From: Bryocella elongata
GTDB taxonomy: Bacteria > Acidobacteriota > Terriglobia > Terriglobales > Acidobacteriaceae
NCBI RefSeq assembly: GCF_900108185.1
Contig: NZ_FNVA01000002.1
Span: 558,001-622,000 of the forward strand
Direction of reading: 5' to 3'
Length of the DNA stretch: 64,000 nt
The notes under the pieces were generated by a model, which did no database searches, was not told where the DNA came from, and was given only the letters and a program-made list of their open reading frames with translations. Positions 8,853-63,034 of this stretch are shown here, in pieces. The stretch's first letter is position 1, and every line of letters starts with the position of its first letter. A program made the translations under genes and the position numbers.

Positions 8853-8875
8853 GGTAGGAAGTTTGATCGAGTGAT

Positions 8876-8938
8876 GAGTTGGGAGCTGGGAGTTATGCGG
8901 TATCAGTTTTCCAGATGCCAGTTCTCCAGATGCCAGTT
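8876..8938. repeat. Heptanucleotide-type tandem repeat, touching the mreB stop codon
   Basis: Units of about 7 nt: GAGTTGG, GAGCTGG, GAGTTAT, CAGTTTT, CCAGATG, CCAGTTC, CCAGATG, CCAGTTA. The last unit runs into the mreB stop codon (TAA at 8939-8937 on the minus strand). The word CCAGATGCCAGTT occurs twice here and again near 31300. Confidence 0.8.
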
Positions 8939-9989
8939 AGTCGATGGAGATCTTGCGGAGGAGGCGGAAGTCGGAGAGCATCTTGCCGGTTCCGAGGACG
9001 ACGGAGGCGAGCGGATCGTCGGCGATGGAGACGGGGAGGCCGGTTTCTTCGCGGATGCGCTTGTCGAGGTTCTTGATGAGCGCTCCGCCGCCGGTGAGGA
9101 CGATGCCGCGGTCGGAGATGTCCGCGGAGAGCTCGGGCGGGGTGCGCTCGAGGGCGACGCGGATGGCGTTCATGATGGTGGCGATGCACTCGCCGAGGGC
9201 CTCGCGGATCTCGGAGTCCTCGATGGTGATGGTCTTGGGGACGCCTTCGATGAGGTTGCGGCCCTTGATCTCCATGGTGAGCGGCTTATCGAGGGGATAG
9301 GCGGAGCCTAACTCGATCTTGATCTGTTCCGCGGTGCGCTCGCCGACGAGGAGGTTGTACTTGCGCTTGAGGTAGGTCATCACGGCTTCGTCCATCTGGT
9401 TGCCTGCCATGCGGACGGAGCGTGAGTAGACGATGCCTGCGAGGGAGATGACGGCGATGTCGGTGGTGCCGCCGCCGATGTCGACGACCATGTTGCCGCC
9501 GGGCTCGGTGATGGGCAGGCCGGCGCCGATGGCGGCGACCATGGCCTGTTCGACGAGATGGACCTCGCTGGCTTTCGCGCGGTAGGCGCTGTCCATGACG
9601 GCGCGCTTTTCTACCTGCGTGATCTCCGAGGGCACGCCGATGACGATGCGGGGGTGCACCATCATCTTGCGGTTGTGTGCCTTCTGGATGAAGTAGTTCA
9701 ACATCTTTTCGGTCTGCTTGAAGTCGGCGATGACGCCATCCTTCATGGGCTTGATGGCGATGATGTTGCCGGGGGTTCGACCCAGCATGTCCTTGGCTTC
9801 CTTGCCGACGGCTTCGACTTCGCCGGTGACGCGATTGACCGCGATGATGGAGGGCTCATTGACGATGATGCCCTTGCCGAGCGCGTAGACGAGGGTGTTT
9901 GCCGTGCCCAGGTCGATGGCCAGGTCGCTGGAGAAGAGCGAGAAGATGCTGCGCATGCCGCCGCGCGAGGAGAAATTCTTCGATGACAT
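8937..9989 (-). CDS. mreB: Rod shape-determining protein MreB
   Basis: 350 residues, normal length for MreB. This actin-like ATPase polymerises along the inner membrane and guides lateral wall synthesis with MreC, MreD, RodA and PBP2. Visible motifs: phosphate-1 loop AIDLGTANTLVY (about residue 24), the NEPSIIAV strand, phosphate-2 loop VVDIGGGTTDIAV and the adenosine motif IVLTGGGALI. A slightly long N-terminus (MSSKNFSSRGGMRS) precedes the core. No mreC or mreD follows within the window on this strand, so it is encoded alone here. The gene ends inside a heptamer repeat. Confidence 0.97.
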   Translation of the reverse strand: MSSKNFSSRGGMRSIFSLFSSDLAIDLGTANTLVYALGKGIIVNEPSIIAVNRVTGEVEAVGKEAKDMLGRTPGNIIAIKPMKDGVIADFKQTEKMLNYFIQKAHNRKMMVHPRIVIGVPSEITQVEKRAVMDSAYRAKASEVHLVEQAMVAAIGAGLPITEPGGNMVVDIGGGTTDIAVISLAGIVYSRSVRMAGNQMDEAVMTYLKRKYNLLVGERTAEQIKIELGSAYPLDKPLTMEIKGRNLIEGVPKTITIEDSEIREALGECIATIMNAIRVALERTPPELSADISDRGIVLTGGGALIKNLDKRIREETGLPVSIADDPLASVVLGTGKMLSDFRLLRKISID

Positions 9990-11318: not shown

Positions 11319-11342
11319 TTCGTTGTCCGTTATCAGTTGGAA
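11319..11342. repeat. Short heptamer repeat directly after the ald stop codon
   Basis: CGTTGTC, CGTTATC, AGTTGGA run directly from the stop codon to the terminator at 11348. Confidence 0.5.
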
Positions 11343-11580: not shown

Positions 11581-11604
11581 CCCCGGGTCCCTTGAGGGAC
11601 CCGG
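11581..11604 (-). repeat. Family B hairpin element, copy 1
   Basis: CCCGGGTCCC/GGGACCCGG hairpin 92 nt behind the cytochrome stop codon, read on the minus strand. Unlike the other copies it lacks the flank GGCACCCGG. It sits 30 nt from family C copy 1, the same C-then-B order as at 13039-13163. Confidence 0.75.
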
Positions 11605-11654
11605 ATTGTGGGTGGGATTTGGGGGGATTGCTGGTGCGGTAGAGACCGACTGAT

Positions 11655-11696
11655 CGAGCTTCGGGTTGTGAGTTTCGAGTCTCGAGTTGCCAGTGG
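11655..11696. repeat. Heptamer repeat directly behind the cytochrome stop codon
   Basis: GAGCTTC, GGGTTGT, GAGTTTC, GAGTCTC, GAGTTGC, CAGTGGT: six units of 7 nt ending exactly at the minus-strand stop codon (11699-11697). Confidence 0.8.
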
Positions 11697-12830
11697 TTAC
11701 TCGGCGGCGGGTTTGCCGGTTTTGAGGAAGGCGATGAGGTCGTCGACCTGGGCGTCGGTGAGTTTTTCGGCGAAGGAGGGCATCATGGGCCGGGCGTCGG
11801 GCTTGCCTTCGTGGATGGTGGTGCGCACGTGGTCCTCGCCGGTGCGGGCGACGATGTTGAGGATGGCGGGGATCTTGGGGGGGCGGCCTTCGAGGGTGTC
11901 CTGGTGGCAGATGGAGCAGTTGTCGAGGTAGACCTGCTTGCCTGCGGCGGCGTTGGCTTTGGGTGGAGCGGGCGTCGCGGTGGGCTTGGTGGGGCCGGTT
12001 GAGGCTGTGGCTGCGGTCGGGCTGGGCTTCGGGGTTCCAGATGCCGGTTGTCCAGATGCCAGGGGGCCAGTTGTTGCGGTGGCCGCGGTGCTGGAGGGGA
12101 CGCCGGGTACGGGGCCGGGGTGGAGGGAGGCGACCTCGCCAGTGGTGTAGGTGGGGAGGTTGGCGACGCTGGAGGTCCAGTGGCGGGTGTTGGCCCACTC
12201 GGCGGGCTCGCCCTGGGTGGTGGCGATCTGGGTAAGCGGCTTGATGGCGGCCGGGGTGGGGGCGTCGGAGTCTTTGGCGTTCTGGCTGAGCTGGAGGGCT
12301 CGGATGTAGGCGGCGATGGCCCAGCGATCTTCGGGGGCGACCTGCGCACGGTACTCGGGCATGGCGCCGAAGCCATTGGTGATGACGGCGAAGAAGTGGC
12401 CGAGGGGAGCGTCGCGGAGGCGGGTGGAGTGGAGGTTGGCGGAGGCCTCGTAGCCTCGCTGGACGATCATGCCGTGGCCGTAGCCGGTGCGGGAGTGGCA
12501 GGGCGTGCAGTAGATGTTGTAGCGCTCCTGGCCGCGGGCGATGAGCTGGGGGGTGAGGGGCAGCGGGAGGCCGTCGCCTTCCTGGAGGCCGTGGGGGCCG
12601 TCGATCATGCCGGTGAGGAGGTAGCTGGTGGGGTCGCCCTGTTCGCGGGCGACGGTGCCGGCCTCCTGGGGGCGGACGGAGCGGCCGTCGGCGTAGAAGG
12701 TGGTGCCGCGCTGGGGGAAGAACTTGGGCTGGTCGTGCATGTCCTGGCGGCAGCCGGCGAGGGTTACGGAGGCCAGCAGGGCGATGGCGGCTGTGGCTCG
12801 CTGCGTCTTGGACGACTGGGTAAGGTTCAT
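11697..12830 (-). CDS. Exported diheme c-type cytochrome, ActE-like (alternative complex III) with a second cytochrome domain
   Basis: 377 residues. The N-terminus is a lipoprotein leader (ALLASVTLAGC). The first domain matches ActE of alternative complex III: RQDMHDQPKFFPQ, the FYADGRSVRP block, heme motif CTPCH, GMIVQRGY and DRWAIAAYIRALQLS. A Pro/Thr/Ala-rich linker of about 90 residues leads to a second cytochrome c domain with CSICH and a distal Met in PMMPSF. In ACIII, ActE passes electrons from the quinol-oxidising core towards a cytochrome oxidase. Here no actABCD neighbours are present; htpG lies upstream. The ATG at 12830 is chosen because it begins the leader. Heptamer repeat DNA lies inside the linker (12037-12074). 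Confidence 0.85.
   Translation of the reverse strand: MNLTQSSKTQRATAAIALLASVTLAGCRQDMHDQPKFFPQRGTTFYADGRSVRPQEAGTVAREQGDPTSYLLTGMIDGPHGLQEGDGLPLPLTPQLIARGQERYNIYCTPCHSRTGYGHGMIVQRGYEASANLHSTRLRDAPLGHFFAVITNGFGAMPEYRAQVAPEDRWAIAAYIRALQLSQNAKDSDAPTPAAIKPLTQIATTQGEPAEWANTRHWTSSVANLPTYTTGEVASLHPGPVPGVPSSTAATATTGPLASGQPASGTPKPSPTAATASTGPTKPTATPAPPKANAAAGKQVYLDNCSICHQDTLEGRPPKIPAILNIVARTGEDHVRTTIHEGKPDARPMMPSFAEKLTDAQVDDLIAFLKTGKPAAE
12037..12074. repeat. Heptamer-type repeat inside the ActE-like gene
   Basis: CCAGATG, CCGGTTG, TCCAGATG, CCAGGGG, GCCAGTTG. It matches the CCAGATGCCAGTT words at 8911-8938 and 31290-31305 but lies within the linker coding region without breaking the frame. Confidence 0.7.
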
Positions 12831-24593: not shown

Positions 24594-24602
24594 GGGCTGG
24601 AT

Positions 24603-24636
24603 GGTGGCTGCTAGCCGCTAGCTATTAGCTCTTAGG
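24603..24636. repeat. Heptamer repeat behind the PpiD-like gene
   Basis: GTGGCTG, CTAGCCG, CTAGCTA, TTAGCTC, TTAGG: period 7, lying between the stop codon and the terminator. Confidence 0.75.
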
Positions 24637-24679: not shown

Positions 24680-24969
24680 TGGGCAGGTGTAGCTGTTGAG
24701 CGTTGCGGGGACTTGCGAAGACATTTGTGGTCAGAAGCTCTCCGGCGGCCTTCGGCTACGAGGGATGTGGCAGGTTCTTTCGGCATCGCTCAGGATGACA
24801 ATTTCGGGTATCGGGTATCGGGTTGCCATGGGGCTGCTTCGCGGCGGATCGCACTTCATCGCGTATGTTGCATCTGTTGCGAAGTTTCGGTGGAATGAAT
24901 GCAGCATCTCCGCCGCCGGTCTGCGCGTCGAACGCAGGGTGAGCTTGTGGGGCTCACGAAGGAGGTCCT

Positions 24970-26804: not shown

Positions 26805-27377
26805 ATGGGCGCGACGTCCGGCATCTCCGTAAAGACGATTGCTGTGATTGGCGCGGGCGACCAGGGCCGGGCCCTGGCCGCTGCTGCGGCTCGTGCGGGC
26901 TTTACGGTGTATCTCGAAGACGTGATGCCGGTGAAGCTGCGTCATGCGCAGGAGGCTCTGGGCGACCTGGCGGGCGTGCATTACGTGTCGACAGTCGAGG
27001 ACGCGGTACACGATGCGGACCTGGCGATCGACTTTGTGCCGGATGAGCTGGAGTCGAAGCTGGAGATCGTGTCGCTGCTGGACCGCATGGCTCCGCCGCG
27101 GACGCTGCTACTGATCCCGACGCGGGCGCTGAGCATCACGGACCTGGCGAGCTGCACGTATCGTGCGGCGCAGTGTGTGGGGGTGAAGCCGGGCGATCCT
27201 GATGCGCCTTACCGGACGAACCTGGTGTCGGCGCCGGTGGAGATTATTCGCAGCAAGTTTGTGACGGAGGCGGCGCTGCGTGCGGCGCAGGCGTTCTTTG
27301 CGGCGATGTCGATCTCTTCGGAGATTGTGGAGGATCGTTTGGAGCCGATGCTGGTCAAGAATCAGCAGAACAGCTGA
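26805..27377 (+). CDS. Single-domain NAD-binding protein of the 3-hydroxyacyl-CoA dehydrogenase N-terminal type
   Basis: 190 residues covering only the Rossmann domain (PF02737-like). The dinucleotide motif is VIGAGDQGRALAAAAARAG (about 13-31), followed by an acidic YLED that favours NAD over NADP, and TVEDAVHDADLAIDFVPDELESK as in FadB/HBD proteins. The usual second HCDH domain (about 100 residues, PF00725) is absent because the frame stops at 27377. It may be an NAD-dependent enzyme with a reduced fold or a regulatory binder; activity is unknown. Confidence 0.75.
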   Translation: MGATSGISVKTIAVIGAGDQGRALAAAAARAGFTVYLEDVMPVKLRHAQEALGDLAGVHYVSTVEDAVHDADLAIDFVPDELESKLEIVSLLDRMAPPRTLLLIPTRALSITDLASCTYRAAQCVGVKPGDPDAPYRTNLVSAPVEIIRSKFVTEAALRAAQAFFAAMSISSEIVEDRLEPMLVKNQQNS

Positions 27378-27398
27378 TTCGCAGAACAGCAGAACAGT
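27378..27398. repeat. Short repeat directly after the Rossmann-protein stop codon
   Basis: GCAGAACAGCAGAACAG (27381-27397) contains AGAACAG twice, and the word also occurs within the 3' coding end. It sits between the stop codon and the terminator, like the heptamer runs. Confidence 0.45.
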
Positions 27399-31229: not shown

Positions 31230-31312
31230 GGATGATCGAGTTTTGAGTTTCGAGTTTCGGGTTGGGTTTCAGTTGCCAGGTTTTCAGATACCAGATGCCA
31301 GTTGGGTTGCGG
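31230..31312. repeat. Longest heptanucleotide repeat run of the window
   Basis: Units GAGTTTT, GAGTTTC, GAGTTTC, GGGTTGG, GTTTCAG, TTGCCAG, an 8-nt unit, ATACCAG, ATGCCAG, TTGGG. It lies in the 261-nt gap between lpxB and the first ferritin-like gene, next to the family B hairpin at 31332. Confidence 0.85.
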
Positions 31313-31331: not shown

Positions 31332-31363
31332 CCCGGGTCCCTTGAAGGGACCCGGGGCACCCG
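31332..31363 (-). repeat. Family B hairpin element, copy 3
   Basis: CCCGGGTCCCTT/AAGGGACCCGGG with flank GCACCCGG, 35 nt behind the stop of the ferritin-like gene. Read on the minus strand it is followed by CTTTTCTTG, so it is a fair terminator. Confidence 0.85.
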
Positions 31364-39144: not shown

Positions 39145-41355
39145 TTAGGCGGTGGCGGGTGAGCCTGTTGCCGTGAGAGCGGCCAGCTCCTGGTCCTTGT
39201 ATTGCAGCTGGTAGAGCTTGTAGTAGAGACCGCGGTGGGCGAGGAGCTGCTGGTGGGAGCCTTGTTCGCGGAGCTGGCCTTTGTGCATGACGAGGATGGT
39301 GTCGGCGCGCTGGACGGTGCTGAGGCGGTGCGCGATGAGGACGCTGGTGCGGCCGGTGATCATGCGGGCGAGGGCAGACTCGACGCGGAGCTCGGTTTCG
39401 GTGTCGACGGAGCTGGTGGCCTCGTCGAGGATGAGGATTCCGGGGCGATGTGCCAGTGCGCGGGCGAAGCTGATGAGCTGCTTCTGGCCTGTCGAGAGCG
39501 TCGCGCCGCGTTCGATGACGGGCGTGTTGAAGCCTTCGGGGAGTGAGCGGATGTAGTCGGCGACGTTGACTTCTTCTGCCGCGCGCTCGACCTGCTCGTC
39601 GGTGATGGACTCGGTGCCGAGGCGGATGTTCTTCGCGATGGTTCCGGTGAAGAGGAAGGAGTCCTGCAGCACGATGCCGAAGCGGAGGCGCAGTGCGTGC
39701 ACGTCCTGCTCGCGGACATCGACGCCATCGACGAGGACGGTTCCGGATTGCACATCGTAGAAGCGCATCATGAGCGCGGTGATGGTGGTCTTGCCGGCTC
39801 CGGTGTGGCCGACGATGGCTGCGGTGTGGTCGGGCTCGATGGTGAAGGAGACGCCGCGGAGGATCCACTCGATGTCGCGGAGGAGGGGGTGGTCGGCGGG
39901 GGAGTTGTTGGTTGTTGGTTGTTGGGTGTTGGGGTTCGAGGTGGAAAGGGTTTGAGCGGTTGAGGTGAGATGGGCGGCTTCGGGGTTCTTCGACTCCGCT
40001 GCGCTGCGCTCAGAATGACGGATTTGTGATGAGGCGTTCTCGCGACGGATTTGTTGCAGGGCGGCTTCTTGGTCGGTGGTGAGTTGCTGGTAGGTGAACC
40101 AGACGTTGCGGAACTCGATGCGGCCGGAGTGGTCGCCTGGGATGATCTTCGCGGGGGCGGGGATGTCGGGGACGGTGTCGATGAGCTTGAAGATGCGTTC
40201 GGCTGCGGCCATGGCGGCCTGCAGGATGTTGAACTTGTCGCTGAGATCCTGGATGGGATAGAAGAATCGCTGCGCGTAGCGGATGAACGCGATGAGCGTG
40301 CCGAGCGTGACGATGTTGCCGAAGAGGCTGTAGGCCGAAGCTCCGCTGGCTGTGACGTAGAGATGGTGCGAGAGCCAGGTGTGTTGCGTGGCCCCGAGCA
40401 CGGCGATGCCGCCGCGCCAGATGACGAGGGCGATGGCGATGGAGGCGAGGAACTCGACGACCGGGTAGTAGAGCGCATAGGCGAAGATCGCGTCGGTCCA
40501 GGCTTCTTTGTTCTCGAGATTGACGGCGGAGAAGTCACGGAAGGCGCGCTTCTCTCGGTTGAAGAGCTGCACCACGCTCATGCCGCTGACGTACTCCTGG
40601 GTGAAGGAGTTGATCTTCGCGGTGGCGGCGCGCTGGCGGCGATAGCTGTCGCGGACGTGCTTGCGGAAGAGGTGCGTGGCGTAGGCGATGCCGGGGATGA
40701 CGGAGATGGTGAGCAGCGCGAGCGGCCAACTCATGGAGAGCATGACGACGATGATGAACGAGAGGGAACAGATGTCCTCAAAGATGGCGAGGACACCGGA
40801 GGTGAACATGTCGTTGAGCGCGTCGACGTCGGAGGTGACGCGGGTGACGAGGCGGCCCACGGGATTGCGGTCGAAGAAGGCGATGTGCATGCGCTGGATG
40901 TGGCGGAAGATCTGCGAGCGCAGGTCGAACATGATCTTCTGGCCGGTCCACTGCATGAGGTAGGTCTGCACGAACTCGAGGCCGAAGGTGATGGAGAGCG
41001 CGGCGAGGTAAAGGAGCGCGATCTCGGTGACGCCGGTGAGCGGGGTTCTGCTGAGAAAGTGCGTGAGCCAGTGCTGCTTGCCGGCCTCGGGCGCGAGGTA
41101 GGTGTCGATGGTGACGGCGAGCAGGAACGGGCCGGCGATGTCGGTGAAGGCCTTGAGGAGGATGGCGGCGGCGGAGACGCCGGTCTGGAGCTTGTAGGGC
41201 GCGAGATAGCCGGCGAGGCGGCGCATGATGCGGCCGTCGTAGGCCTTGCCGACGACATCGTCGTCGGGCTTGGTGGTGGCCGGTTTGGGAGGCGCGGCCT
41301 TCTTGTCGCCCTTGGTGGGAGCGTGATCGGGCTGCGGGCTGGCGGTCTCGGGCAT
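39145..41355 (-). CDS. ABC exporter (MDR/lipid type, TMD-NBD half transporter) with a repeat-derived insertion
   Basis: 736 residues, about 150 more than usual. The transmembrane domain spans about 45-360 (KLQTGVSAAAILLKAFTDIAGPFLL, SDVDALNDMF, TQEYVSGMSVVQLF). The NBD has the A-loop Tyr (FTYQQ), Walker A GHTGAGKTT, Q-loop LQDSFLF, a signature LSTGQKQ (Thr for Gly) and Walker B ILILDEATSSVD. Between the A-loop and the next strand (WILRGVSF) about 75 extra residues are coded by a family D palindrome (39976-40020) and heptamers (39903-39940); in most NBDs this loop is only a few residues. The Lys/Pro-rich N-terminus starts MPETASP. Probably a heterodimer or homodimer exporter. Confidence 0.92.
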   Translation of the reverse strand: MPETASPQPDHAPTKGDKKAAPPKPATTKPDDDVVGKAYDGRIMRRLAGYLAPYKLQTGVSAAAILLKAFTDIAGPFLLAVTIDTYLAPEAGKQHWLTHFLSRTPLTGVTEIALLYLAALSITFGLEFVQTYLMQWTGQKIMFDLRSQIFRHIQRMHIAFFDRNPVGRLVTRVTSDVDALNDMFTSGVLAIFEDICSLSFIIVVMLSMSWPLALLTISVIPGIAYATHLFRKHVRDSYRRQRAATAKINSFTQEYVSGMSVVQLFNREKRAFRDFSAVNLENKEAWTDAIFAYALYYPVVEFLASIAIALVIWRGGIAVLGATQHTWLSHHLYVTASGASAYSLFGNIVTLGTLIAFIRYAQRFFYPIQDLSDKFNILQAAMAAAERIFKLIDTVPDIPAPAKIIPGDHSGRIEFRNVWFTYQQLTTDQEAALQQIRRENASSQIRHSERSAAESKNPEAAHLTSTAQTLSTSNPNTQQPTTNNSPADHPLLRDIEWILRGVSFTIEPDHTAAIVGHTGAGKTTITALMMRFYDVQSGTVLVDGVDVREQDVHALRLRFGIVLQDSFLFTGTIAKNIRLGTESITDEQVERAAEEVNVADYIRSLPEGFNTPVIERGATLSTGQKQLISFARALAHRPGILILDEATSSVDTETELRVESALARMITGRTSVLIAHRLSTVQRADTILVMHKGQLREQGSHQQLLAHRGLYYKLYQLQYKDQELAALTATGSPATA
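39903..39940. repeat. Heptamer repeat in the ABC transporter gene
   Basis: GTTGTTG, GTTGTTG, GTTGTTG, GGTGTTG, GGGTTCG on the plus strand, coding an Asn/Thr/Gln-rich stretch on the minus strand. Confidence 0.85.
39976..40020. repeat. Family D palindrome inside the ABC transporter gene
   Basis: Words GGGTTCTTCGACTCCGC, GCTGCGCT and CAGAATGAC. On the minus strand it codes RHSERSAAESKNPEA, the recognisable product of this repeat family. Confidence 0.85.
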
Positions 41356-41520: not shown

Positions 41521-42753
41521 ATGGCTGATTTGCGCCCGGAATTCGCGGAGAACGGTGCTTTGGGCGTGTATGTGTCGGTGCCGTTCTGCCGGGCGAAGTG
41601 CAGCTTCTGCAACTTTGCTTCGGGTGTTGGGACGCCGGTTGCGATTGAGCGGTATGTCGAGTCGTTGTGCGCTGAGATTGGATCGGTGGGGAAACGTGCT
41701 GAGTCGCTTGGGGCGATGCTTCCTCGCAAGGCCGACACGGTGTACTTCGGTGGCGGCACGCCGAGTCTGCTGGAGCCCGCGCAGCTGAATCGGATTCTTG
41801 CGGCGATTCGCGGGCAGTTTGATGTGGCGGCCGATGCGGAGATCACGATGGAGGCGGCTCCGGGGCAGATTTCGGACGAACTGCTGAAGGCGGCGCTGCG
41901 GCTGGGCGTGAATCGCGTGAGCCTGGGCGTGCAGAGTTTTATCGACCGCGAGGCGGCCTCGGTGGGGCGATCGCACACGGGTGAGAGCTGCGTGGCGGAG
42001 ATTGCGCGGCTGCGGCGCGCGGGTGTGGGTAAGGTCGCGGCGGATCTCATCGCAGGGCTACCGCACCAGACGGACGCGAGCTGGCAGCGGTCGCTGGACG
42101 CGGCGGTGGCGAGCGAGTTGGATCACCTGAGCGTGTACCTGTTCGAGGTGGATGAGGGCTCGCGGCTGGGGGCGGAGGTGCTGGGCGGCGGCGCGCGGTT
42201 TTATGCGCCCGAGGTGCCGAACGAGGAGCGGGCGTCGGCGATGTATGAGCGCGCTTGTGCGTTCCTTCCGGAGCATGGGTTTGGGCAGTACGAGATCTCG
42301 AACTTTGCGCGGGCAGGGTTTCAGGCGAAGCACAACCGCAAGTACTGGGAGCGGGCGCCGTATGTCGGCTTCGGGCTGGATGCGCACTCGATGCTGAAGA
42401 TCGAGGGTCCAGGGCTCGGGGCTCAGGGGCCAGAGTGCGCGGTGCGGTTTGCGAATGCGGATGAGCTGGCGCGGTACGATGGTCGTGAGCCTGCAGAGAT
42501 TACAAGAGTGGATGCGCGGGGAGCCTTTGAAGAGGCGCTGTTCCTGGGGCTGCGGCTGGTGGAAGGTGTGAGCGTCGCGGCGTTGCGGCAGCGGTTCGAT
42601 GCAGGCTGGGTGGATGAGGCTGCGGGGATCGCGCGGGAGCTGGCTGCGGGCGGTTTGATGGTGGTGGATGGCGAGCGTTGGGCGCTTACGTCGCACGGGC
42701 GGTTGGTGTCGAACGATGTGTTTGGGCGGTTGCTGGAGAGTGTTGCGGTTTAG
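41521..42753 (+). CDS. hemW: HemW-like radical SAM protein (heme chaperone)
   Basis: 410 residues. The radical-SAM cluster motif CRAKCSFC is at about residues 23-30, followed by the HemN/HemW signature VYFGGGTPSLL, NRVSLGVQSF and the HemN C-terminal domain. HemW is believed to insert heme into respiratory enzymes; it lacks the second cysteine set needed for coproporphyrinogen dehydrogenase activity. The ATG at 41521 gives MADLRPEFAENGALGVYVSVPFC. It is divergent from the ABC transporter. A short GP/GL insertion (IEGPGLGAQGPE) corresponds to heptamer DNA at 42405-42434. Confidence 0.93.
   Translation: MADLRPEFAENGALGVYVSVPFCRAKCSFCNFASGVGTPVAIERYVESLCAEIGSVGKRAESLGAMLPRKADTVYFGGGTPSLLEPAQLNRILAAIRGQFDVAADAEITMEAAPGQISDELLKAALRLGVNRVSLGVQSFIDREAASVGRSHTGESCVAEIARLRRAGVGKVAADLIAGLPHQTDASWQRSLDAAVASELDHLSVYLFEVDEGSRLGAEVLGGGARFYAPEVPNEERASAMYERACAFLPEHGFGQYEISNFARAGFQAKHNRKYWERAPYVGFGLDAHSMLKIEGPGLGAQGPECAVRFANADELARYDGREPAEITRVDARGAFEEALFLGLRLVEGVSVAALRQRFDAGWVDEAAGIARELAAGGLMVVDGERWALTSHGRLVSNDVFGRLLESVAV
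42405..42434. repeat. Heptamer repeat inside hemW
   Basis: GGGTCCA, GGGCTCG, GGGCTCA, GGGGCCA: four units of 7 nt inserted without changing the frame, coding a Gly/Pro/Leu loop. Confidence 0.7.
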
Positions 42754-63011: not shown

Positions 63012-63034
63012 AATGCAGTGAGTAGTGAGTAGAG
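63012..63034. repeat. Heptamer repeat directly behind lemA
   Basis: GCAGTGA, GTAGTGA, GTAGAGA: period 7, between the lemA stop and the terminator at 63040. Confidence 0.7.

Follow-up and report, generated by a model that had tools for sequence, protein, structure and literature searches.

Heptamer arrays in the Bryocella elongata genome: evidence for small dispersed elements of seven-letter units

Why should bacterial DNA carry short tandem arrays with a seven-letter step at many separate places, and with different units? The question is raised by locus 31230–31312 of the window, the 64,000-nt stretch of the Bryocella elongata genome analyzed here. The original prediction listed about eleven such loci and compared them with the cyanobacterial STRR sequences, heptanucleotide tandem units that are dispersed over the genome. 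It favored a process specific for 7-nt units. On balance, the heptamer arrays appear instead to be mainly the bodies of small dispersed elements that have been copied to new places, not independent products of 7-nt slippage. The elements are probably small, dispersed, heptameric and mobile, with a secondary change of unit number. If many heptamer repeats are inserted, copied elements, the question moves from polymerase mechanics to mobile DNA, and strain comparison can decide. Copied elements with definite ends would offer a testable answer to the commonness of seven-letter repeats in bacteria.

The seven-letter period is not a product of chance. Self-matching segments were scored at each lag in the window and in 864 kb of G000, the 5.67-Mb genome that holds the window (G002, G007, G016 and G023 are related genomes); other lags and Markov sequence, of order 3 for the window and order 4 for the genome, served as controls. 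MreB of G000 is 97% identical to that of Granulicella mallensis. The enrichment first claimed for the window is borne out, with seven lag-7 segments scoring at least 12 against 0.5 expected from order-3 Markov sequence. Lags 5, 8, 10 and 11 give none, and lags 6 and 9 give seven and nine, as codon multiples would. The scan of the wider genome, proposed at the outset as the check, gives 28 lag-7 segments in 864 kb and none in order-4 Markov sequence. Lag 14 gives 22, lag 8 gives 11 (octamer arrays), lags 6, 9 and 12 give 4–6, explicable by coding periodicity, and lags 5, 10, 11 and 13 give 0–1. Sampling of G000 was nonrandom: seven of 40 listed stretches (C4:430001, C4:620001, C6:400001, C7:340001, C10:260001, C14:60001 and C15:240001) and the run C4:1-200000 contain places already matched in the own-genome DNA search, mostly through a hairpin and at three (C4:430001, C7:340001, C10:260001) through arrays, and the density and skew figures for G000 are therefore biased upward.

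The same period is found elsewhere. In 400 kb of G007 there are 12 lag-7 segments against one in Markov sequence. The best 80 mreB matches in named genome records (1.34 Mb; the mreB set) hold 28 against none, with 27 at lag 15 and 11–18 at lags 6, 9, 12 and 18. The class set, 20 genomes that represent 14 families of the class (341 kb), holds 16, with at most two at lags 8–11 and six at lag 12; at a lower threshold, 11/20 stretches have at least one segment, among them L277, which was selected for its array (the genome carries an mreB array). The G002 sample has only three lag-7 segments, not above its lag 6 (seven) or lag 8 (three), and 200 kb of E. coli K-12 has none. Chance or base composition is rejected by the Markov sequences, the other lags and E. 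coli, and a real 7-nt periodicity with many unit sequences exists in G000 and in other genomes of the class. That the period is constant is nearly right, the exceptions being the octamer arrays (11 lag-8 segments per 864 kb) and arrays of mixed 7/8 step. The arrays are dispersed over many, mainly intergenic loci (26/43 in G000, 4/5 in G002, 12/16 in G007 and 49/54 in the mreB set), these fractions being approximate since gene calls came from simple ORF scoring, which overcalls coding in places. A 7-nt tandem unit above chance and such dispersal are the two marks of heptanucleotide tandem repeats of the Xanthomonas, Nostoc and STRR type, and both were found.

The eleven loci of the window are of unequal strength (Table 1). 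Four are clear by themselves, with at most 0.2 such segments expected per 64 kb (24603–24636, 24804–24829, 31230–31312 and 39903–39940). Two are borderline at 0.5 expected (11655–11696 and 42405–42434), two marginal at 2.4 (8876–8938 and 63012–63034) and one weak at 13.6 (11319–11342). The locus at 12037–12074 has no lag-7 signal and a period of 15, that is 7+8, and that at 27358–27397 has period 8. A stop codon is at most 10 nt away from five of them (8938, 11319, 11696, 24603 and 63012; mreB occupies 8937–9989 on the minus strand), and three are inside genes for a cytochrome c, an ABC transporter and a HemN-like protein. Long arrays of a distinct octamer family, RGAACAGC, are present in G000 (L014:14384, L014:17078 and L015:9241), and the 27378 locus is a member of that family. 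The hairpin CCCGGGTCCCTTGAAGGGACCCGGG or close variants also occur at 11582–11604; it recurs across the genome and here adjoins arrays. Copies of a GTCATYCYGAGCG-type repeat adjoin heptamer arrays at 39980–40010 and 24780–24799, and within the ABC transporter gene this repeat translates as RHSERSAAESKNPE.

Table 1. Repeat features of the window, with positions counted from its first letter.
Feature	Position	Strand	Basis
Degenerate TGATC element copy	8864..8900	+	In profile and found by profile, E 5e-16; marginal by lag-7 test
CCAGATG/CCAGTTNN array, period 15, touches mreB stop codon	8903..8938	+	TRF
Weak heptad run immediately 3' of alanine dehydrogenase stop codon	11319..11342	+	Sequence; 13.6 expected by chance
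TGATC element and short CCAG tail, ends at stop codon of minus-strand cytochrome gene	11651..11696	+	Profile, pattern; borderline lag-7
CCAG-type array within cytochrome c gene, between two domains	12026..12072	+	Profile E 2e-4; Pfam; period 15
Heptad array 4 nt 3' of stop codon, then terminator-like hairpin	24598..24636	+	Sequence, lag-7 test
TCGGGTA array adjoining GATGAC-type repeat	24804..24829	+	Sequence, lag-7 test
Period-8 array (AGAACAGC), separate octamer family	27358..27397	+	Lag test
38-bp TGATC-heptad element copy, main locus	31233..31270	+	Profile match E 1.4e-13 (copy used to build profile) and pattern match
CCAG-type 7/8-nt array immediately 3' of TGATC element	31270..31304	+	Sequence
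Hairpin CCCGGGTCCCTTGAAGGGACCCGGG adjoining array	31332..31356	.	Own-genome DNA search; similar at ~18 other genome places
GTTGTTG array in ABC transporter gene, linker longer than in most orthologs	39904..39940	+	Pfam, ortholog comparison
Short array in loop of HemN-like gene	42405..42434	+	Sequence, Pfam, relatives
AGTGAGT array 3 nt 3' of LemA family gene stop codon	63012..63034	+	Sequence, Pfam; marginal statistically

Differing units had been taken to exclude the copying of one element. This does not hold, since copies of a single family are present at both 31230 and 11655 and a second family, AGGG, recurs at unlinked sites; unit sequence differs between families and is repeated within them. 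The first family is a 38-bp element made of TGATC and 4.7 heptads. Its pattern has 44 matches in G000 (33 forward, 11 reverse) and a genus-wide distribution, with 0–4 matches in each of 27 relatives (35 in total), against 0–2 each (16 in total) for the reversed pattern. Searched with a profile built on 11 copies, the G000 sample yields 25 places at E<0.001, the 11 among them, and the remaining loci yield three weak matches (E 1.5e-4 to 4e-4). The ends recur. TGATY or NGATC begins 9 of the 11 copies, which were chosen for their arrays, and in 34 pattern matches conservation extends as far as +36 and vanishes from +38; the left end is partly a matter of selection because the 34 were picked on their first 17 letters, and therefore rests on the 11 profile copies. 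Coding sequence seems to have contributed at least two of the 34 by chance (window 41324 and L352). Upstream of the TGATC start, the matches tend to have a run of A at a distance of 3–8 nt. GRG is conserved every 7 nt, and [GC][AG]G motifs at 7-nt steps number five in 18 of the 34 matches, six in seven, four in four, and two, three or seven in five. Clusters in the G000 sample that contain two unit types have a defined order: the GAGTTTC-type precedes the CCAG-type in 7/7 unmixed clusters, and three more are mixed, Markov sequence giving two clusters as control. The cluster at 31270–31304 was scored as mixed, with the GAGTTTC-type first on average. A further word, CCAGATGCCAGT, has 20 matches at 16 sites in G000, 19 of them on the plus strand of the contigs, and 0–3 in relatives.

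The AGGG family is likewise spread over the genus, its pattern being present in 18 of 28 genomes at 0 to 92 overlapping matches per genome, a count for which the reversed control is uninformative as it nearly equals the pattern. Twenty loci, four orthologous pairs included, were examined in full, and 10 are paired and 10 single; the same short repeat thus stands alone or in inverted pairs, as in REPIN. GC stands immediately before the first AGGG at 15 of the 20 loci, and CCCT followed directly by GC closes the right end of 6/10 paired forms. Halves in G000, G002 and G023 mostly end in ATTAG and some G007 arrays in GTAG; the GTAG or CGTC tag on a palindromic unit, which marks the REP class, is therefore not conserved. 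Opposite-strand pairs within 200 nt are head-to-head in 8/8 cases among the matches listed. Five unlinked loci of G002 have the unit order ATT-AAC-ATT-ATT, in a left or a right arm, an informal argument since ATT is the commonest triplet. Three orthologous single halves of G002 and G023 have kept their unit number, and in one orthologous pair an arm has altered its units. In both families, the two for which ends were worked out, the ends recur and unit number varies between copies. Long, nearly pure arrays are also present, as at C4:873721, where 8 of 10 units are AGGGATT.

Arrays can also be net insertions within genes. Those at L016 8151–8371 sit in a single ORF that Pfam identifies as PriA, and an intergenic reading of them was dropped. 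About 300 bp of array and filler lies between two conserved blocks. The interval measures 242–325 nt here and 2–202 nt in relatives, shorter in 16/16 of those with both flanks comparable (20 were fetched). Short array-like peptides stand at the same place in the linker of several relatives, and part of the insertion therefore predates this species. The zinc-ribbon region of PriA contains another stretch derived from an array. The ABC-transporter linker with the 39903 array has 83 aa, against 34–40 aa in 21 of 25 orthologs, 58–61 in three and 91 in one. In the HemN-like loop, two readable relatives have ~9 aa fewer, and a third has ~5 aa more and a different sequence.

These results bear on replication slippage favoring a 7-nt step, a proposal of Mrazek and colleagues according to the accessible text of PMC4692102 and PMC4679880. 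Slippage would build each array in place, and shared units would reflect a shared sequence preference. It would account for the way period 7 stands out across many unit sequences, for some long, nearly pure arrays, and for arms that share units with no detectable common order of units. Identity in lag-7-picked arrays drops from 0.79 at lag 7 to 0.65 at lag 28, also in favor of slippage, in a selection that favors lag 7; no steady decay is seen when arrays are chosen by lag 14. Nevertheless, slippage in place is rather unlikely as the main origin. It does not explain the recurring ends and modal five heptad motifs of the TGATC family, the recurring unit order at unlinked loci, the order of the two unit types or the composite insert in PriA, and pure 7-nt slippage further fails on the families shared between places and the constant unit number at three G002/G023 sites. 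Uniform mutation over unit columns is rejected (193 of 343 columns in 49 arrays are without deviation, 141 expected), an excess that shared ancestry of variants can explain.

The arrays are placed nonrandomly with respect to genes. Among 3′ gene ends flanking an array, those at most 15 nt away make up 36% in G000 (n=28), 50% in G002 (n=4), 73% in G007 (n=11) and 45% in the mreB set (n=44), and random placement gives 6–9%. The 5′ ends are enriched also, with 21% vs 7% in G000 and 41% vs 8% in the mreB set, the latter largely from mreB-mreC. Free of any threshold, the 45 nt 3′ of stop codons have a lag-7 excess in G000 (0.298 vs 0.263), G002, G007 and L204–L256. L177–L203 has no post-stop excess, and little or no excess is seen at 5′ ends or in gap middles; mreB-mreC was excluded. 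Read in gene sense, 39/48 arrays at most 12 nt from a stop are G-richer, and 23/31 of those before start codons are C-richer.

Some arrays have an inverted partner, defined by a score of at least 28 within 400 nt, such that both arms of one pair can be counted. The fractions are 10/43 in G000 (control 7/214), 5/5 in G002 (0/16), 7/28 in the mreB set outside mreB-mreC (1/133), 9/20 in the class set (1/88) and 0/16 in G007 (6/78). Partners exceed the control in four of five sets, and the rank test is significant in G002 and the class set only (p 0.08 in G000, 0.18 in the mreB set). Unit order was colinear between the two arms in 1/34 pairs at p<0.05 (combined p 0.17). Exact fold-back copying of one arm is thus unsupported by a test that is weak where units are alike. 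A general head-to-head polarity was rejected too; it holds for the listed AGGG pairs and mreB-mreC, and other inverted pairs divide 13 vs 10.

Inverted arms can be followed across species in the gap between mreB and mreC. A rough motif placed the mreC start within 520 nt at 49 of 80 loci, and 38 of the gaps are at least 75 nt long. Lag-7 self-match is 0.46–0.47 at both gap edges vs 0.20–0.32 at the other lags from 3 to 13. The units vary between species; the architecture persists and the two arms of a gap match, a left arm's own right arm being among the best five of 38 in 28/38 gaps. Clear arms were seen in 19 of the 49 gaps, with a best period of 7 in 16 and 8 in three. In the printed gaps the arrays lie at the outer edges with a spacer between.

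Such gaps invite a reading as selected RNA or DNA signals, that is terminators, mreB-mreC attenuators or tandem sites of a global regulator, as proposed for the heptad elements of Geobacter. Hairpins are predicted in the gaps, and more T precedes the mreC start where arms are present (4.1 vs 2.3 of 9, p 4e-4). The post-stop position, the modal five heptads and the GRG conserved every 7 nt agree with a signal, and inverted repeats 50–80 bp after stop codons are common in bacteria according to the part of PMC13155455 available. We consider this origin improbable all the same, since units vary between species at one gap and insertions occur within coding genes. The arms of 36 tandem gaps from all sets contain 1022 Watson-Crick pairs, 55 G.U, 54 A.C and 107 other mismatches. 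The near equality of G.U and A.C gives no sign of selection on RNA pairing, and such selection is unsupported as the origin of the arms.

Alternatively, template-directed or self-priming synthesis could extend the 3′ ends of DNA breaks by G-rich heptamers, with head-to-head pairs arising where two such ends are joined. The polarity of the listed AGGG pairs, a left arm that is G-rich in 14/17 non-tied pairs of mreB-mreC, and two arms with the same unit and no detectable common order agree with it. It is very unlikely, however, given the lack of polarity in the other inverted pairs, arrays at the outer gap edges with a spacer between, and several unit types per genome; the search for a candidate enzyme covered Y1 transposases only. 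An identical 31-nt array is present at mreB-mreC of L220 and L256, with mreB third-position identity of 0.57 and unrelated spacers; a closer pair (0.74) has different units there. That one array served as a widely dispersed template was rejected, the L220/L256 word (at most one mismatch) being found in 1/299 class genomes, at the mreB gap itself. Comparison of lpxB neighbors found a ferritin neighbor in 1/25 loci, that of G000.

GC skew is uneven along these chromosomes, with 20-kb blocks at 0.2–0.29 in some regions (the window, L014–L017 and several G007 blocks) and about zero elsewhere. In G000, array number per 20-kb block rises with absolute skew (rho 0.56, p 9e-5 over 43 blocks at the middle one of three thresholds). 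The correlation in G007 is significant at the middle threshold (rho 0.45, p 0.04) and not at the other two, and in G002 at the highest only. Orientation follows the sign of local skew in 55 of 64 arrays of G000, G002 and G007, and in 13/26 of the mreB set. Conservation across the genus is seen for one skewed block rich in arrays and is mostly lacking for one block free of them; DNA age, judged from this single pair, may therefore explain part of the link between skew and arrays.

Copied elements would bring these observations together as follows. One genome would carry several families; in TGATC and AGGG the element is mostly 4–5 heptads long with recurring ends, occurring singly or, in AGGG, as an inverted pair. 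A DNA-level process would copy it to new places, and copies would survive where insertion is harmless, just after stop codons, in operon gaps, or in frame in protein loops and linkers. Unit-number change and point mutation would modify the copies later. In the strongly GC-skewed DNA of G000 and G007, the G-rich strand of the copies lies mostly on the G-rich strand of the chromosome. The copying may be performed by a trans-acting enzyme that acts on single-stranded or hairpin DNA. Two places are already suited to a test, the PriA linker and the mreB-mreC gap, the latter read in 49 genomes.

Several results stand against copied elements. No target-site duplication was seen by eye at the 20 AGGG loci, arm order was not detectably colinear, and G007 has no inverted partners. 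Some arrays are as long and pure as slippage would give (C4:873721). One orthologous G002/G023 pair has an altered arm. None of 13 Y1-transposase loci in G000, G002, G007 and G016 has an array, and ~1.5 kb on each side of 30 Y1 loci of the genus contains six arrays in 93 kb, near background. REPINs are short repeats present as singles and inverted pairs, with a Y1 transposase, the RAYT. A RAYT flanked by the repeat was not found at the 13 loci, and the neighborhood of the Y1 (tyrosine) transposase gave a negative result at the loci covered. The arrays differ from REP and REPIN in this respect and in that their halves consist of tandem heptads and not of one palindrome. They share with REP, REPIN and TIR families (PMC3733652; PMC3116915) the form of short extragenic elements that stand singly and in inverted pairs, such elements being reported within replication and repair genes too. 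Many Y1 loci of the genus (L404–L416) have other, longer inverted repeats on both sides, which recall the tyrosine-transposase TIR families reported in Acidobacteria (PMC3733652, in part); those families appear to be a different repeat from the heptamer arrays.

Heptameric repeats are on record in distant bacteria, and the comparisons here extend to the accessible portions of each paper. No paper title on heptamer arrays in Acidobacteria was found in short listings of the open-licence literature. The GGGAATC repeats of Xanthomonas (PMC4692102) are mostly intergenic, at a mean of 28 nt from the 5′ neighboring ORF, with a modal four units, many close opposite-strand pairs and few intragenic copies. 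The present arrays resemble them as dispersed, mainly intergenic heptads near genes with opposite-strand pairs. They differ in having many units instead of one and an orientation that follows GC skew in G000 and G007, where Xanthomonas is described as without leading/lagging strand preference; the portions compared contain no analysis of ends or of copying. The GGGGA(C/T)T repeats of Nostoc (PMC4692102) are also dispersed heptanucleotide tandem units, with few inverted pairs reported and other unit sequences. Marine Beggiatoaceae carry TAACTGA direct repeats in 2–6 copies (PMC4679880), which are like the present arrays in being intergenic heptamers, some over stop codons and some in ORFs; they lie mostly just upstream of start codons and have essentially one unit, whereas here the arrays are enriched downstream of stop codons and have many units. 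Geobacter metallireducens has 49 copies of a four-heptad (GGACCGG) and 15 of a five-heptad (MTYCTGA) element (PMC2700814). The small set number of heptads, and the location of the four-heptad ones between and within genes, are shared with the present elements; the unit sequences differ, and those of Geobacter were interpreted as regulatory sites.

A broader speculation, which we hold to be quite doubtful, is that dedicated machinery writes or moves heptad-structured DNA in many phyla. It would take a 7–8 nt step on DNA ends or single strands, and joined ends would yield head-to-head G-rich arrays. If true, it would explain the heptamer repeats of Xanthomonas, Nostoc, Beggiatoaceae, Geobacter and Terriglobia at once.

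Finally, in two species a small ORF lies between the inverted heptamer arms of the mreB-mreC gap (L237:3836-4256 and L239:3971-4399), and by eye it resembles a small membrane protein.
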